Positions 15,056-22,985 of a stretch of 64,000 bases of DNA are shown one piece after another. The first letter of the stretch is position 1. Each line of letters starts with the position of its first letter. The notes beneath the pieces were generated by a model. That model saw only the letters and a list, made by a program, of their open reading frames with translations, was not told the origin of the DNA and ran no database searches. This DNA is from Isoetes taiwanensis (Eukaryota; Streptophyta; Lycopodiopsida; Isoetales; Isoetaceae): positions 9,898,406 to 9,962,405 of the forward strand of contig JAJEKV010000010.1 in the NCBI GenBank assembly GCA_021234155.1, read 5' to 3'. The translations under genes were made by a program, and so were the position numbers.

Positions 15056-15112
15056 ATGCCTGGTTTAGTGTTAAGGATAAGGGGTTTGGAGGCCACAGAC
15101 CAGGGTTTGAAT
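15056..15112 (+). promoter_or_regulatory. tRNA-like A and B boxes (possible SINE head)
   Basis: TGGTTTAGTGTTAAGGAT (15,060) resembles a pol III A box, and GGGTTTGAATCTC (15,104) matches the B box consensus GGTTCGAATCC with few mismatches. Their spacing of about 45 bases fits a tRNA-derived promoter. LINE coding sequence follows directly. No full tRNA fold was established. Confidence 0.4.
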
Positions 15113-16093
15113 CTCCCAAACAACATGAAAAGTTTTAAAGGCCTCTCCTTCAGTTACCGAGGCCAGAATGTGGAAGTTGCATCCACATACAAATATTTGG
15201 GTGTGGAGTTTCCTTCTACTATGCACTTGGACACATCCATACGGCTACGAGTGACGGCAGGCTGGAAGGCACTATATGCAATGCAAAACAATAGTCATAG
15301 TGAGGAGTTGTATGATTGGGCCTATCAGTCACACCTGTTCAAGGTCTTAGTGGAGCCTGTCCTTTTATACGGGGTGGAAGTATGGGACCCAGTAGTATCA
15401 CTTGCTACTTGGAATGACTTGGAGCAGGTCCAGAAAGCCTTCTTAGTAAGAGCACTAGGGGTGAAGTCCACAGTCCCATATCAAATTCTACTGCAAGAGA
15501 CAAGATTCTTGCCTCTTCAGAAGGCGGCCCTTGATCGCCACATTGTCTATTTTCAGAAGGTGGTCAATATGGATGATGCTCGTCTCCCTAAACTAGCTTA
15601 TGTCATGGCAATGGGGCCGCAGCGCCTCAAGGCCTGCTGGAGGAAAAAGAGAGCTCAATGGTTGGCTAGATGGAATGTGCAGGAGCACAGGTGCATACAT
15701 GTGCAAACAAAGGCAGATCGCCATAGCTTGAGGCAATATCTTGACGCTTGCTTTCTCAGCAAGCTTTGGGATGCCAAAGCCCTTGAACAAGTCACGACAG
15801 CACACTACCAGCGCCACATAAATCCCACATTGGAACGAGGCCCGCAATGCTACCTGCGTACCCACTTGCCCATGAAAAGGCGCAGACTCATTGCCTCCAT
15901 TCGCACAGGGGCACATCATCTTCGAATTGAGACGGGCAGATGGTTTGGTGAGTCACGCCAGGACAGGCTCTGTCAATGCTGCCAAATGGGAGTCATTGAG
16001 GATGAATCTCATACCCTTCAAAGTTACCCAGCATATGATCAAATTCGGACACGTTATGCTGAGTTGGTCAGGTCTGGCCAGCCTTACATGTGA
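15056..16093 (+). CDS. LINE ORF2 C-terminal region, intact 345-codon frame
   Basis: From about residue 25 the frame matches the LINE A family post-RT region: SYRGQNVEV, YKYLGVEF, LRVTAGWKALYAMQNN, LVEPVLLYGVEVWDP, LPMKRRRLIASIRTGAHHLR. It ends with the zinc-like CQCCQMGVIEDESHTLQSYP, where the last Cys of the pattern is replaced by Tyr. The catalytic YADD part is absent, so it is a fragment. The first 25 residues come from the tRNA-like head. The frame is unusually well kept for a truncated element. The conserved 3' UTR block and tail are missing, so the 3' end was lost later. Confidence 0.7.
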   Translation: MPGLVLRIRGLEATDQGLNLPNNMKSFKGLSFSYRGQNVEVASTYKYLGVEFPSTMHLDTSIRLRVTAGWKALYAMQNNSHSEELYDWAYQSHLFKVLVEPVLLYGVEVWDPVVSLATWNDLEQVQKAFLVRALGVKSTVPYQILLQETRFLPLQKAALDRHIVYFQKVVNMDDARLPKLAYVMAMGPQRLKACWRKKRAQWLARWNVQEHRCIHVQTKADRHSLRQYLDACFLSKLWDAKALEQVTTAHYQRHINPTLERGPQCYLRTHLPMKRRRLIASIRTGAHHLRIETGRWFGESRQDRLCQCCQMGVIEDESHTLQSYPAYDQIRTRYAELVRSGQPYM

Positions 16094-16755
16094 CATTGAG
16101 CACAGCATCCATACGGGTGCTGGGATCATATCTTCAGAAGGTTATGGACATGCGAGATCAGCTATGTCCTCGGGCACACACTTGACATGTATATATACAT
16201 TGATGTACACTTGTACAGTTTGACAGCATTCTTATTACTGCCACGGTTTTTAAGTGCTTCAAATGTATCACGTACAATCTACTTTGTTAATTTGGAATTC
16301 TCCGGCATGGCCAAAAACATTTTTGGAATTTTTTTTTAATCGATTTCATAAGATTTGGAGGGTTTTGGCCGCCTGAAAAAATTTAACGGTATCCTAAAAA
16401 TCGTTTATGGCTTCTCCTGTGATTTCAAAATTTTTAGATTTTGGGGTTGGCCTATGCATGCGGAGCCTTTAGCGGCTCTTCCTGCAGCTGTCGAGGCGGC
16501 ATGCATCATCACAAAGCAGAGTTTGATTACAGTGGGTCTAATTTTTCCAGGTTCTGGCTTCTGGCTTGCTCCGGCATTTCTATTCTTGCTCCAAACTATC
16601 AGAGCCCCTTCTCACGCCCTTCTACTCTACCCATGCATGCCTTCGATGCCTCTAATTCAATCCTAGCTATGGCCGATTTGCTTATCTGCGGCACATGATG
16701 CTCGCAGTGTGTATTTTTTGAGATTTTTTCCTGCCCATTTGTTCGTCTGACTGTT
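16094..16755. other. LINE 3' flank, then probable 5' region of the RCC1-like fragment
   Basis: Decayed LINE 3' UTR runs to about 16,250. From 16,300 to 16,755 no repeat or gene is clear; it may hold the upstream region of the RCC1-like first exon and the unlocated Helitron 5' end. Confidence 0.35.
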
Positions 16756-17134
16756 ATGGCGCATGCTGTGGAAGCTGGAGCTAGCTTATCTTCTTCTTTC
16801 GGAATTGGGTCTTCGAGAAATCCCTCAGGATCGAAGCGTTTGGGTGCTTTCACAGGTAAAACAGTGTGTTGCATTAAGGGCTTGAGATTATGGATTTGGC
16901 CGTAGGGTTTCTCTACTGTAGGGTTTCTCTGCTCTGAGAACTATCAGAAGGAGGCATTTGTCTTTCTTGCTAGGTTATTCATCCAGCTATGGAGATATAA
17001 AGATAATCATTAGCTATTTGATTGTATTTCTTATGATTGATATCCTGAAGGCCTTTTGTTGATGTAGATACAGGGGAATTGGCATCATGGGGAGCTCCCA
17101 AATTTGGACAGCTTGGTCAGAAGGACATCTCTGA
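16756..17134 (+). pseudogene. RCC1-repeat protein, first two exons (captured fragment)
   Basis: ATG at 16,756 starts a 100-nt exon (MAHAVEAGASLSSSFGIGSS..) ending CACAG before GTAAAA. An intron follows to GATGTAG, and a 67-nt exon (17,068-17,134) ends at GTAAGT. The splice phases agree, and the junction gives an Asp codon. Exon 2 reads LASWGAPKFGQLGQKDIS, the SWG..GQLG signature of an RCC1 blade. RCC1-type proteins form seven-bladed propellers of about 350 or more residues; only the first blade start is here. No further RCC1 repeats follow, so the gene is a fragment. Confidence 0.6.
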
Positions 17135-18776
17135 GTAAGTCCATTCTGATGAAACTTTTTTATAGAATGTAACACCTCTATTTTTGTGTTTCCAAGCCAA
17201 TTCCCAGGTTCCTCTAGCACCTTCTGTTCTTCTATTTAGGTGAATTGATTGTCCTAGCCTATGCCCATGTGCCACAACTGCATCCTATGTCAAAGGCTAC
17301 TCATTTCTCAGAAAGATATGGTTCAATAGCAAAATTATTTACCATCTGTTGGTTTTGTCTATTTACTTACATCCTGCATATGGTTGCTTAAATCCTTTGC
17401 TTATACATTTCAATGCTTGCCTGTATAAAAGTCGTCCGCAGCCTTATCCTGTTTGTTGGCTTGGGAACAAGGGGTTGTTAATTGTTAGATTTCGATTAAA
17501 ATACAATAGTGCATGTGTTGAGTTATAACTGTGCATGTTTTGGGTTGTGTGAGGTGTGTGGCCAGTGTGCATTGCAGTGTTACGCTCAGCTTAAAATAGG
17601 TTCCTTACTTGGCACATGCATGCATGGTTTACAAAGGTTGAGTCATGTATGCAAGATATATAAAACAAAGTTTGTTTTAGTTTTAGTATGTGGCTGTTAG
17701 GGATTTGACTTGCAGTTTGGTATAGTTAAGTGCATAGAGCATGCAGCGACTGCTTCATTGCTCTTAACGTCACAAATCACATGGTCAACGTCACAAATCC
17801 CATGGTGTATACATCATTCTCAGGCATTTGCAACAATATGCTCCAAAGGCAGTGCATAAGGCCAGGTTAGGCATCAGTTTTTAAGATCTTTGTGCTGCCA
17901 ATCTTTGCATCATGAAACTAGGAGGTCTACAACAGGGAGAAATGATGGTGTAAGTGATTTGTGCTCTGGACTTGGTGCTTTTGGACTTTGCACATCTGCA
18001 GATATGGTATGGCTTAGCCACAAGATGTAAGAAACACATTGGTATGGCTTATGCACAAGATGTAAAAAGCACATTTCCCTCTTAATTATTGCAAACATTC
18101 ATCTGACAGATATGGTGCACAATTGATTTACTTAGGAGTGCTAGAGGTTTTTTTGTCATTCGTTAAGTCCTTCTGATACATGGAATATTCCAGACAATAA
18201 ATATATTGTCCAAACATTCTGAGCTGGGTTTTGTGCGTGTGTTGCTACAAAGATTTCAGATTTCGTGCTTTTACAGAATGGGAGGGAGATTCTCATTACC
18301 GAGCCTCCATTTTTGCAACTACACAGAGCTATGAATGATTCAATTAGCAGACAAAATGAGTACTCAGATCAAGGCAAGGAAATTGAGCATTGAAAGTGGC
18401 TAACATTTATGTGGATATTGGAAGCAGAGCCAATAAGATAAGCTCCAAGCAACCATTGCAGAAGCGAAAAGCTGGCAAGCTACCTCTGGAATAGGCACTT
18501 CCTAATGTTGATATACTGCGACAATATTTAAGGTGAGACCCTGGCAGTGGCAGCCATTTAAGTTCTTCAAGCCTGACTTCTTTTCACAATCAAGGTGAGA
18601 TATTGCAAAAAAGATGGGACTTCAAAGATAGAGGCTGCAATCCTATGCAGAGCTCCTTGGGAGTCTATGAGGAACGAAGAGTTTATGGCAAACGAGCCCT
18701 GCAGGTCTGTTTTCTGCTTCCAGAAACAAAGAAGTAATAGGTTTGCACTTTCTGAACATATACTAACGTAGGTAAC

Positions 18777-18985
18777 TTGGAGTTAGTGCGTGAAGGTTAT
18801 CGCTATTTCCAATCTATGTGTAAATGGTGTTTCCAGATCTCCAGATCCAAATATCTGCATGAATTGACCTTTTGGCACGAGCAGGATGCTTCAATGAGGC
18901 TCACAAATTGCTCCAACTTACTCTGCAGCCTAATCCTGTTGGCTGGAGAGAGCTTCTGAGTATATGTAAAATCTATGAGCTTGGC
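18777..18985 (+). pseudogene. PPR protein fragment (E-motif region)
   Basis: One frame gives LVREGYRYFQSMC. A shifted frame from about 18,872 gives LARAGCFNEAHKLLQ, TLQPNPVGWRELLS and CKIYELGKG. These match the end of a plant PLS-class pentatricopeptide protein, where the last repeat passes into the E motif. PPR proteins bind organelle RNA. A frameshift or stop separates the two parts and the middle (normally HYACMVDLL-like) is degraded, so it cannot work. Confidence 0.65.
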
Positions 18986-19512
18986 AAGGGAGTTGTACAT
19001 TAGGTATGTCAAATTCAAAATTTTGTGAGCTTACTGTCTAGATTTTGGAGTATAACATTTGAAAAAGCTCTTAATTCATGTAGGTTCATTATCCAAGCGA
19101 TAAACATTGAATTTCAAGGCAGCATGAATGAGCATTGGGGAAGGCCAAATAAAATTACCTTCTTTAGCATGCAGATTCTGCCTCTTTTTCAGAGGGTAAG
19201 ACATTTCATGACGACGCCATTTGTTGTGGCGTTGAATCTGATGTTTATGAACAAACAAACAATCAAGGTCAAGTTTCATATCTATTTGTAGTTCCGCAGC
19301 CATCTCATGCATTTGAAAGCACCATGTTAACACCCGAGTATGCAGCAAAACACCATTGAGATCTCTGACATGCATAAGAGGCTCTTTTTGGGTTGCCTGA
19401 AGGAAAAGCAGCATTGGAAAAACCTTTTCATTTATCGCTACCACTGCTTGGCTTGGTTTATTAGTGAAATTATTGTATTTGTGTGTGCAATGCTGGGCAT
19501 TGTAACTATTGT

Positions 19513-19919
19513 TCATATTGCAGTTGAGATGGCACCCATTGCTAAGGTATTTGATCCCTTACTTTCTTGAGTCACAGATTGCTTTCACTCTGCACATATT
19601 AGGTACCCTCCGTTAGTTCCATTTTCCTTATTTTGTTATATGGAAAGGATGTTACTAAGAGTAATGTTCTTTATGAAACATTTCTGGTTGAATCAGTGGA
19701 TGGAGATGTGCATTTCTTTTTGCATGCCAATTACTTTCCATTTGATTTGTCTTCAATATAAGAATAAATTTTGTTTTCGGCTTAAAGACTCAATTTATTA
19801 AGTTTTAACAGGTTGGAGGACTTCAGGATGTGGTCACAAGCCTTTCACGAGCAGTGCAGGAATTGGGGCATAACGTGGAAGTTATAGCACCAAAATACGA
19901 CTGTCTAAAGTACAATTAC
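19513..19919 (+). pseudogene. Starch synthase III fragment (start of the GT5 catalytic domain)
   Basis: The exon ending at 19,546 reads IVHIAVEMAPIAK and is followed by GTATTT. The next exon (19,812-19,919, 36 codons) follows TTTTAACAG and reads VGGLQDVVTSLSRAVQELG then HNVEVIAPKYDCLKYN, then GTAAGG. Joined at the splice site they give K-V-G-G-L, the ADP-glucose binding signature of starch and glycogen synthases; the flanks match class III. Starch synthase III elongates amylopectin chains in plastids and exceeds 1,000 residues, so this is a small captured piece. No other exon was seen nearby. Confidence 0.85.
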
Positions 19920-20751
19920 GTAAGGATTTGCATATGCACATGATTTAAATTTCATTAGTCAACAACAATTGGTTCCTGTGCCTGAGGGATAAATATTACA
20001 GCTGTTTGAGTCAAACATGAGGCAGGTTCAATGTTATGCTGGCCGTGTATGATTAAGGTTGAGAAAGGTTATTAAAGACTTTATAAACGCTTTTTATTGA
20101 AAAGTAACTATGGCATATGGCTCCCAAGATCCCAAGAGAATACGCCAGGTTAAATTGCATGCGACAAGTCATCCAGTGTTTGTTGGTTGCACAGTGGGCT
20201 AGCATGTTTTAGCTGAAATGTTGGGTGTTTAGAGGTATCTCCATGAGTTAGATGTAAAAGATGTATTTATCATTATTTTGGAAAATATGGAAATGGAGTT
20301 TTCCAAGCTTAGATCCATTTAGTTCAATTTTGTAGGTTCATAACTGTGATCGTTTCGGCTTAATATCAACCCTTATTTAAGAAGAGTTGGACAAAAGAAA
20401 TGTTTGTTGTGGCTATAAACTTATTGCATTGCAACGCAACATTGTTAGACAGCTCATGTAATACAACATTACAAAACATTCTTTATAGTGATGCCTCATT
20501 TTGTATTGCATCACCCAACTTACGAATACAACATTGCAAAACAATCTTTATATAGTATATTGTTGTGAACATCTCATCAAATTGCAATATAATGCTTCAC
20601 ATTAACTTGATGTTGTAGGTCTAAAATCTGGTTTCATTTGGTCACAATAAGATTCTCGCTCAGGGATCATAGATGCAACCTTTGTACCACAAGAAAATAT
20701 GTTAATTCCAGCCTGAATAGACGATGCTGACGCTGTCCATTTTATTGGCAG

Positions 20752-20953
20752 GTTTATAATGCCCTCGGATTTACATTTTTTAGTAGTTAAAATGTTGAGC
20801 AAGCAATTGTCCAGTATGAAAAGGCAGTAGCTTGGAATAACTTACGGAATGCTTAGTGGGCGAAGGCATTGAAGGCCTATGAACAGACATTGCAATTTGA
20901 TCCTAACAACAAGGTCGCACTAGCACGCGAGATAAACATCGTTTCAATGAAGG
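20752..20953 (+). pseudogene. TPR protein fragment, PYG7-like
   Basis: After an acceptor TTGGCAG the frame reads VYNALGFTFFSS, stop, NVEQAIVQYEKAVAWNNL, then (after another stop) WAKALKAYEQTLQFDPNN KVALARE, with GTATTC at the end. These are two TPR helices with the NALG, AWNNL and FDPNNKVA phrases typical of the chloroplast photosystem I assembly factor PYG7. Two in-frame stops and missing residues show decay. The assignment to PYG7 rather than another plastid TPR protein is from motif memory only. Confidence 0.6.
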
Positions 20954-22045
20954 TATTCTTTCTGTTGATGGAAATGAGACCTTGAAGTATCGTAACCTTG
21001 AACTAATGATCAGAAAATAAATTCCTGTTTATGCATTTGCAAGAAATGCCACTGTAACAAAATAAGAGGCGTCCACACAAATAACTAGCATAGCATCATC
21101 ACTGCATGATATAACAAACTCTAAGCTTTGTCGAGATGCCAATGCAACAACATAGCCAGCTTTGTATAAGATAGGCTCTTTTGAACATCACAAGTTATAT
21201 AGAACATAGAGCAAATATGTATCATCATGATCACCAAATATTATCAATAAATCCATTGAGACTTTTTTGACATTTCTAATGTGCACAAGGAAATATCCCC
21301 TTTAAACGTAGGCCAAATGTTATGTTTTGCTTGCATATATTCTTGCAATCAACATGGAAGTTAATTGCACTTAACATTTCACATTGGCATTTGAAGGGTT
21401 TGGGTTACACCACATTTATCAATGTCTTACAACATTGCTAGACAAGATGTTTTTGAATTCAACATACTTTGCGATAAACAGATGCGACATCCATGTCTTC
21501 ATATCCAATTTATAGCATTGAAAGATCATCGCCAAACTCTTCTGTAGTTTTGTATGACCAAAGTAAACATGTCTTTTAATAATCGTGCAACTTTATATTG
21601 TTATTTAAATGAGCATTACATTCTTATTGAAACTTCGCCTTTGGAAGTACATTGTATGTTGCATTATCACATTACACCTATCCAGATGTTTCTTTAATCC
21701 TATGGGAAGCGCATTCCCCTCTCAATATTGCAAACATTAATGCTTCAAAAAACATAGGAAGTGGATTCCCTCTCAATATTGCAAACATTGGTCATGTATA
21801 TATGGCTTCTTTTCAATGGAATATCCACTCTAAACTTAGGCCAAATGGAAGATAACTAGAAGATTCTTGCTAAGCCCTCCAATGCCAGTAGTTGCAGTGG
21901 AAATGCCAATTTGTTGTAGATGCAATACATGTGGTGAGAATGCATATTTTGTGCTCCAATGTTCCTCCTACAATCCTCACATGCATATTTTCATGCTCCA
22001 AATCTTTATTTAGCAATAAACAACCACCTTTCAGATTGTTACTAG

Positions 22046-22073
22046 GCCCGGCAACGCCGGGCACCATAACTAG
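22046..22073 (+). mobile_element. Helitron 3' terminus of the gene-carrying element
   Basis: A perfect GC-rich hairpin GCCCGGCAACGCCGGGC (stem 7, loop AAC), spacer ACCATAA, then CTAG (22,070-22,073) followed by T. This is the standard Helitron end: hairpin, CTRR, insertion before T. Confidence 0.75.
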
Positions 22074-22985
22074 TATTGATTAGATCTACAACCACTTAAT
22101 GGAAGGTAGATAAAGCCGCCCGTTGTTTTGTTGCCTGGCATAATTTTAGTGAATTTCATGTCCTCAGTACATAGTTTAGTGGTCGGATCCTTAGTTTCAA
22201 AGCCCAGTGGTTGTCTCCTACAAAAAAATTCCAAGAGATGGTGACCAAGGGCATATGATTTTTGTTAGTAGATGGTTGAGTATTGCTCAAAACTTTATGT
22301 CGGAATGCCAAACTTAGAAGATTTTTGAATCTTGGCAAGCTTACTTAGAAAGCTTCAAGATATCAAATTTGAGTGTAGCAAAGAAATAAATTTTTATTTG
22401 GTATTTGTATGATACCATAGAGATGAGTGAGATAGTAGAATGCAAAATCTTGTCAAAAGTTTGTGAAATAGACTTAAACGTTTTGCCTAATCCAAAGGTT
22501 TTTCACCGTAGATTGATTGAGCTTTCCATTTTTTCAAAGCTATGCATCACGATTGTTTTATCTCTTTAGCTATGTTCTTTGCTTCTAATGCTCAATTATT
22601 ATATTTCATTTGATCATGTTTTCATTGTCCAACACTTATATCTGTGTCCTTATTATCAAAGATTCCAAGATATTTACACGTATGCGGGAGATCTTTACAA
22701 AATCTACAAAGCAACAATACATATCTTGCCGTTTAATTTAGTTGACATCTATGAAGGCAGCAACGTGAGAGTATGATCTATGATACCAAACCACACATGT
22801 GAACGAGAAGCCTACTATGGTTTTTGTTCAAGACAAATTCAAATTCAATTGAATAGATTAAGAACCTTTTTTCTTCCCATAAACGATTTCAATAGTCTAG
22901 TATAAATTACTATTCCAAAGTGATTGACCAATTAGTTATATTTATTTTTACTTTATTTATGTTCTTAAATGTAATTTTATGTACA
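22074..22985. other. Intergenic, no recognised gene
   Basis: AT-rich sequence with short frames only. I see no domain, repeat or regulatory motif I can support. Confidence 0.4.

Follow-up and report, generated by a model that had tools for sequence, protein, structure and literature searches.

The 64,000-nucleotide stretch of the Isoetes taiwanensis genome analysed here (assembly GCA_021234155.1, contig JAJEKV010000010.1, positions 9,898,406 to 9,962,405; hereafter "the window") harbours on its plus strand a 5,796-bp interval, 16278-22073, which by its sequence is a complete, non-autonomous Helitron, i.e., a rolling-circle transposon, belonging to a large family. Very probably, the element entered this site by one insertion, was presumably mobilised in trans and represents a nested mosaic of plant gene fragments assembled over several rounds. 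Our comparisons point to pieces of at least four plant genes and at least three capture steps, since related copies hold different subsets of the fragments, and since a module containing starch synthase III (SSIII) and PPR sequences splits a piece of a PYG7-like gene. An initial annotation had recognised a Helitron with captured gene pieces, and the ends, hairpin and empty sites agree with this identity. The element is a true, well-bounded case of a known phenomenon, the start, first donor and history of which are corrected here.

The element shows the layout A|TC...hairpin...CTAG|T and is bordered by A (16277) and T (22074); its extent is defined by aligned ends, empty sites and a sister copy. 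The 5' terminal region (16278-16506, plus strand) starts with TCTACTTTGTTAATTTGG. Upon searching the genome with 16250-16900, many of the best 40 of 779 candidates started at query base 27-28 and stopped at 255-257, corresponding to window 16276-16506. The left limit had previously been placed at 16756, while the true start lies 478 bp further left; the proposed check for a shared TC upstream of 16,756 indeed led to the TC at 16278. Aligned copies were picked by similarity to the window copy, and their ends were compared over 13 rows for the 5' end and 29 rows for the 3' end. A|TCTACTTTGTTAATTTGG is present in 13/13 rows, CTAG in 26/29 (the others being L020 with TTAG, L028 with CTAT and L039 without a clean end), and the next base is T in 28/29; the flanks differ. 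As the rows were gathered with queries containing TC and CTAG, these letters are partly there by construction, which is not the case for the flanking A and T or the unrelated flanks. The 3' rows of L033, L038 and L040 are the ends of other elements adjoining there, and the L038 copy itself breaks off at 22016, where another element joins it. Since L038 stops early and some 3' rows belong to other elements, a clean 3' end accompanies the 5' end in 11 of the 13 copies.

The sister copy L025 is 97% identical to the window copy, has both ends and different flanks, and has lost the stretch equal to 20666-21965. Empty sites were sought with the joined flanks (16128-16277 plus 22074-22219). Among the best 40 of 1,054 candidates were the query's own halves, a repeat (36/40 rows) and two places that cross the junction, the paralogous empty sites C1068:48572 and C1044:1718460. 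With longer flanks, the former is continuous over 281/310 positions (91%), 26 of them left of the junction, and the latter over 230/249 (92%) with just 8 positions to the left, which makes it the weaker case. Because the empty sites run across the junction, the element reflects a single insertion between A and T without target duplication. Together with the 5' TC, a 3' CTRR end, a short 3' hairpin and a multi-copy family sharing the 3' end, these are the features of a canonical Helitron. No open reading frame of at least 250 amino acids was found within the element on either strand, and no Rep or helicase match in its three plus frames.

The 3' region (21286-22073, plus strand) is common to the 3'-end family and not to the PYG7-like donor. 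It ends in a hairpin with a 7-bp stem and an AAC loop (GCCCGGC-AAC-GCCGGGC, 22046-22062), followed by ACCATAA, the terminal CTAG (22070-22073) and T (22074), exactly as the initial annotation had it. Folded as single-stranded DNA, the last 40 nucleotides reach -9.8 kcal/mol compared to a shuffle mean of -3.9 (z -4.0; better than all 200 shuffles). The 29-nucleotide end, GCCCGGCAACGCCGGGCACCATAACTAGT, occurs with at most 2 mismatches at 2,490 places in the 1.66-Gb genome (1,295 forward and 1,195 reverse), and the reversed control pattern at none. A search with the last 174 bases of the element gave 40 matches (best 40 of 426 candidates).

The assembly of the element is reflected by 13 copies with an aligned 5' end, namely L005-L011, L025, L036-L039 and the window copy. 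A PYG7 piece is present in 13/13 (in L025 a small part remains), the FtsZ and RCC1-like pieces in 10/13, and the SSIII and PPR pieces in 2/13, the window copy and L025. L005, L007 and L010 carry PYG7 sequence without FtsZ, RCC1-like, SSIII or PPR pieces, and eight copies combine PYG7, RCC1-like and FtsZ pieces without SSIII and PPR. L005, L007 and L010 contain L054 7186-8557 (coding orientation) in unbroken form at 94-95% identity, and the FtsZ-bearing siblings show an internal loss within this L054-derived stretch. In the window copy, 18187-20609 sits mid-way in the same stretch. Accordingly, the fragments are nested: PYG7, then the SSIII module, then PPR within the module. The named fragments all lie on the plus strand, as noted before, and their gene loci (FtsZ, L035; SSIII, L045; PYG7-like, L054), along with a PPR relative (L050), bear out the earlier view that the element had captured gene fragments. 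A gene-capturing Helitron is expected to hold pieces of host genes in its interior, with introns and traceable donors, and the window element agrees with this.

The left part of the captured PYG7-like gene comprises 18138-18186 (plus strand), where 18138-18176 corresponds to L054 7227-7265 in coding orientation (92%). The right part, 20610-21285 (plus strand), includes the last exon from 20752 and the 3' flank, and matches L054 7785-8557 in coding orientation at 85-89% in two pieces. The TPR exon follows the acceptor ttggcag|GTTTAT; according to the peptide alignment, it has acquired an in-frame stop and lost 5 codons. The window fragment remains under the cut-offs of TPR_1 and TPR_2. The full 94-residue exon of the donor gene scores 69.3 bits (TPR; cut-off 27.8), and a frame of L054 yields 58 bits with TPR_1, in line with the fragment's earlier assignment as PYG7-like. 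The donor locus L042/L054 at C908:18638362 was among 16 matches of an initial search with a 47-residue query, and was recognised as a PYG7-like gene by means of the 94-residue exon and a longer stretch. The order of a membrane stretch, a helical exon, two TPRs and a tail fits, as we take it, PYG7/Ycf37; none of the library models returned names PYG7.

The nested module (18187-20609, plus strand) is missing in 11 of the 13 copies whose 5' ends were aligned. Among the best 40 of 335 candidates in the genome, matches covering most of the module are limited to the window copy, L025 (97%) and L026 (82%, starting at 18724). The SSIII fragment with its introns spans 19508-20252 (plus strand; exon parts 19508-19546 and 19812-19919). 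It matches PF08323 at 38.1 bits (33.9 bits in another search; cut-off 22.7), and the 35-residue exon matches the PDB entry of a plant starch synthase 4 (6gne, E 2.7e-08). The splice signals AAG|GTATTT, ttaacag|GTTGG and TAC|GTAAGG are preserved. The SSIII gene L045, which encodes CBM53 and Glyco_transf_5 domains, aligns across exon and intron at 91.3% (19508-20047) and 79.8% (20045-20252), confirming the proposed SSIII fragment with introns and splice sites. The SSIII piece recurs in L027, L028, L029 and L040. In L027, L028 and L029 its first base corresponds each time to L045:702 of the donor, and therefore these pieces go back to one shared capture. L028 ends in a degenerate version of the window element's 3' end and is 97% identical over 18360-18613, after which 286 other bases, partly SSIII, replace window 18614-19507 with the PPR sequence. 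At L030 (C913:1068500-1074500), sequence corresponding to window 18180-18613 is repeated several times.

The PPR fragment (18783-19250, plus strand) aligns to the PPR gene L050 at 84.8% over 18783-18979 and 87.6% over 18984-19142, which upholds its earlier identification; PPR-related copies are found at L031, L032, L041, L049 and L051. The open frame of L050 holds several PPR repeats, and the peptide of 18863-19000 aligns with its end. On its own, the 46-residue window peptide matches no Pfam family.

The 5' part of the element contains a piece of an FtsZ gene (16507-16888, plus strand), with an ATG at 16756 and 34 codons to 16857. By sequence comparison, it is exon 1 plus approximately 200 bases upstream, because L035 encodes FtsZ and the peptide MAHAVEAGASLSSSFGIGSSRNPSGSKRLGAFTG is the same in the window, L033 and L035. 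Frames of L035 match Tubulin/FtsZ at 69 and 78.7 bits and TIGR00065 (FtsZ) at 129.6 and 145.9 bits, the latter being partial matches under the model's whole-protein cut-off. Positions 16554-16888 are 95.5% identical to both L033 and L035, which are 94% identical to each other, and 16507-16888 are 90.6% identical to L034. This N-terminal exon, captured with its upstream flank, probably codes for a transit peptide. RCC1, which had been named as the first donor, is thereby ruled out as the source of the exon at 16756 (MAHAVEAGASLSSSFG...). More relatives of the FtsZ upstream region, at L062 and L063 (C1030, C13), are about 85-88% identical to L033 and L035, and might be other FtsZ paralogues or captures.

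Within this captured FtsZ region, element positions 251-500 (approximately window 16528-16777) differ by 7.8% between the window copy and L025, by 9.3% between L011 and L006, and by 6.4% between L037 and L038. The fractions of 250-base windows differing by at most 2% are 12/19, 12/15 and 12/17 for these pairs, respectively. Two of the three pairs, from five compared, have further divergent patches, and the pairs L037/L036 and L037/L039 do not stand out in the FtsZ region. The divergent copies are no closer to FtsZ genes. The patches might stem from polishing errors, from local hypermutation or from exchange. As to hypermutation, C>T plus G>A account for 7/22 of the changes in L025, 15/29 in L006, 8/14 in L038, 10/44 in L039 and 5/16 in L009.

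Of the RCC1-like fragment originally proposed, the second exon stands in weakened form: the RCC1-like piece (17009-17226, plus strand) contains a 23-residue exon (17068-17134) and flanking intron-like sequence, and the exon peptide, DTGELASWGAPKFGQLGQKDISE, scores 14.8 bits with PF00415 (RCC1; E 0.045), below the family cut-off of 21.7. The piece has a 97% match in L046, another Helitron-like copy, and is also found in the FtsZ-bearing siblings. A genome search for RCC1 (119 matches; best 150 of 244 candidates) returned none near the DNA relatives of 17009-17226. The relatives on C1039, C1032, C916, C1063 and C1094, which have none of the siblings' other parts, show no RCC1 match nearby in this search, and the plus frames of the one fetched among them, L046, gave no RCC1 match either. 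The adjoining 17227-18137 (plus strand) is unassigned internal sequence common to sibling copies. Positions 17220-17435 recur at L047 (91.7%), whose three plus frames match no Pfam family.

For the order of events we infer the following course. The 1.37-kb PYG7-like piece (last exons plus 3' flank) and the RCC1-like exon, which are apart in some copies and joined in others, would have been brought together, and in the joined copies FtsZ exon 1 with its upstream flank would have been added on the 5' side of both. The line that includes the window copy and L025 would then have exchanged the middle of its PYG7 piece for an SSIII module also found in another Helitron lineage, and within this module a PPR fragment would have taken the place of part of the SSIII sequence. 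Read-through beyond the 3' end is insufficient because the captures are internal. Given the interrupted PYG7 piece, repair inside the element or recombination from copy to copy is favoured over simple 3' read-through; filler DNA introduced during break repair, combined with recombination between copies, might be the means of capture. Where the window copy shows internal losses compared with its siblings, adjacent BLAST pieces overlap by 5 (17006-17010), 7 (17220-17226) and 4 bases (20922-20925), which may represent microhomology at deletions.

Mobilisation presumably occurred in trans through the Rep-helicase of an autonomous partner. The Rep domain PF14214 is abundant in the genome, as all of the best 150 of 1,813 candidates exceed the cut-off. 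Among six Rep-domain loci fetched, L060 has the identical 29-nucleotide end in the same orientation as the Rep frame. At L060/L061, this end is preceded, at a distance of approximately 3.5 kb, by a 1,667-codon frame encoding Rep and PIF1 helicase domains; only the last 60 bases of the window element match there (93%). By our estimate, chance alone would place one of the 2,490 ends in 1.66 Gb in this way in approximately 4% of cases. The locus is suggested as the autonomous partner of the window family. Two further Rep-domain loci show different ends: L056 (C1018:33465800-33474600) has two ends with the GCCCGGCAACGCCGGGC hairpin common to the window and another tail, ACACGTTTACTAGT, perhaps those of a sister Helitron family, and L057 has an unrelated hairpin ahead of CTAGT.

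Several observations weigh against parts of this account. L046 carries the RCC1-like piece and weak matches to both ends, and has neither PYG7 nor FtsZ sequence; hence, PYG7 need not be the earliest capture. No donor of the RCC1-like exon emerged among the candidates scored. No clear microhomology was seen by eye at six donor junction points examined (PYG7, SSIII), and therefore filler DNA is not favoured among the means of capture. The helicase partner is one of six loci examined and has about 60 bp of 3' end in common with the window element, and no matching 5' end was found at L060/L061. Finally, trees of 5' and 3' segments are incongruent. In those of two 5' segments (10 rows each), L008 and L006/L011 are the neighbours of the window copy and L025, and in an unrooted tree of the 3' segment (13 rows; donor and L025 dropped owing to coverage) the window copy and L026 are separated from the remaining rows. 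The differences fit exchange between copies or unequal rates.

The last observation touches on the possibility that the SSIII/PPR module is not a late gain, but an old part of the family that most copies lost on recombining with a copy holding PYG7 alone. In the diverged L026 (84%), the module (from 18724 on) and a PYG7 piece are already present together with most of the 3' end and no recognisable 5' end, and its separation, along with the window copy, from the other rows of the unrooted 3' tree agrees with an old module. Yet the 11 module-free copies carry donor-like PYG7 sequence at this place, so that a loss would have needed recombination early on or several times; the branch of L026 is long, and rates are unequal in L039, too; overall, we consider an old module unlikely. 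A capture of all fragments in one transposition, akin to the initial annotation's view that one element picked up all four, would account for their presence in one element on the same strand. It is contradicted by the three PYG7-only copies (3/13), by eight further copies (8/13) without SSIII and PPR, by the PYG7 stretch broken by the module and by gene loci on different contigs, and could be upheld only if the partial copies were secondary losses that restored a contiguous PYG7. These data indicate stepwise assembly, and a single pick-up is highly improbable. Even closer to nil is the probability of a degenerate host gene or pseudogene cluster beside an unrelated Helitron 3' end: nothing beyond first appearance speaks for it, and the common 5' ends of 13 copies and the empty sites enclosing the entire interval refute it.

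A stepwise assembled Helitron could still serve its host as a chimeric gene, its transcripts being spliced from FtsZ exon 1 to later exons, ending in the terminal PYG7-like one, and giving rise to a product. FtsZ exon 1 with some 200 bp upstream of the ATG at one end, a last exon with 3' flank at the other, the shared strand and the consensus splice sites still present at SSIII and TPR exons are compatible with such a role, as are the chimeric Helitron transcripts described in maize (PMC4528327). However, the reading frames are short, the TPR exon has an in-frame stop and lacks 5 codons, and the sister copy L025 is devoid of 20666-21965; a functional host gene is very improbable. It is possible that a chimeric RNA linking FtsZ exon 1 to the PYG7-like last exon arises from the element. 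The FtsZ, SSIII, PYG7-like and PPR donors are, we presume, nuclear genes for plastid or other organelle proteins. Only a slim chance is assigned to the broader idea that the element is an assembled chimeric transcription unit, and that Helitrons in this plant might prefer open, highly expressed genes for plastid functions and could spread plastid-targeting first exons.

In the surroundings, a 345-residue frame at 15056-16251 resembles, by eye, the C-terminus of a LINE reverse transcriptase. The repeat end at 16251, 26 bases left of the Helitron insertion, recurs in 36 of the best 40 of 1,054 candidates at 98%. Downstream, 24968-53989 consists of about three tandem copies of a unit of approximately 9.8 kb, 89-94% identical, with reverse-transcriptase-like frames by eye and no Rfam match.

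The copy series renders much of the assembly of the element readable, and the window provides a lycophyte Helitron with several donors and clear boundaries, for which gene loci, partial copies and empty sites are at hand. With roughly 2,500 such 3' ends, this genome could reveal whether captured genes are a biased sample. In the open-access literature, no paper on Helitron gene capture in a lycophyte (including Isoetes and Isoetes sinensis) was found among the titles listed. The main text of the Isoetes taiwanensis genome paper does not contain the word "helitron" (PMC8566536), and that of a 2026 review on plant gene capture contains neither "lycophyte" nor "fern" (PMC13317346). According to a comparison from 2008, captured fragments are scarce in rice and Arabidopsis (PMC2575219).

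Stepwise sequence acquisition by Helitrons is described for insects (PMC6544945), and chimeric Helitron transcripts for maize (PMC4528327). Maize Helitrons carry 0-12 gene fragments, with a mean of 3 in one group, and their stepwise capture was deduced from related copies (PMC3288121). The window element shares with them the CTAG 3' end, several unrelated gene fragments, stepwise capture and nested Helitrons. It differs from the maize elements in its lycophyte host, in a captured fragment split by a module that also occurs in another Helitron lineage, and in a Rep-helicase partner that is here a candidate (PMC3288121). Similar to insect Hel1, internal acquisitions separate related copies, as the filler DNA model expects; at the Hel1 source loci the junctions show matches of 2-13 bp, whereas none are evident by eye at the six points inspected here (PMC6544945). 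The 5'-TC, the 3' hairpin and the CTAG-3' are also features of Helraiser/Helibat (PMC4778049). In that system, read-through past the 3' end leads to 3' transduction, while the fragments described here are internal, and hence end bypass alone does not explain the captures in the window.

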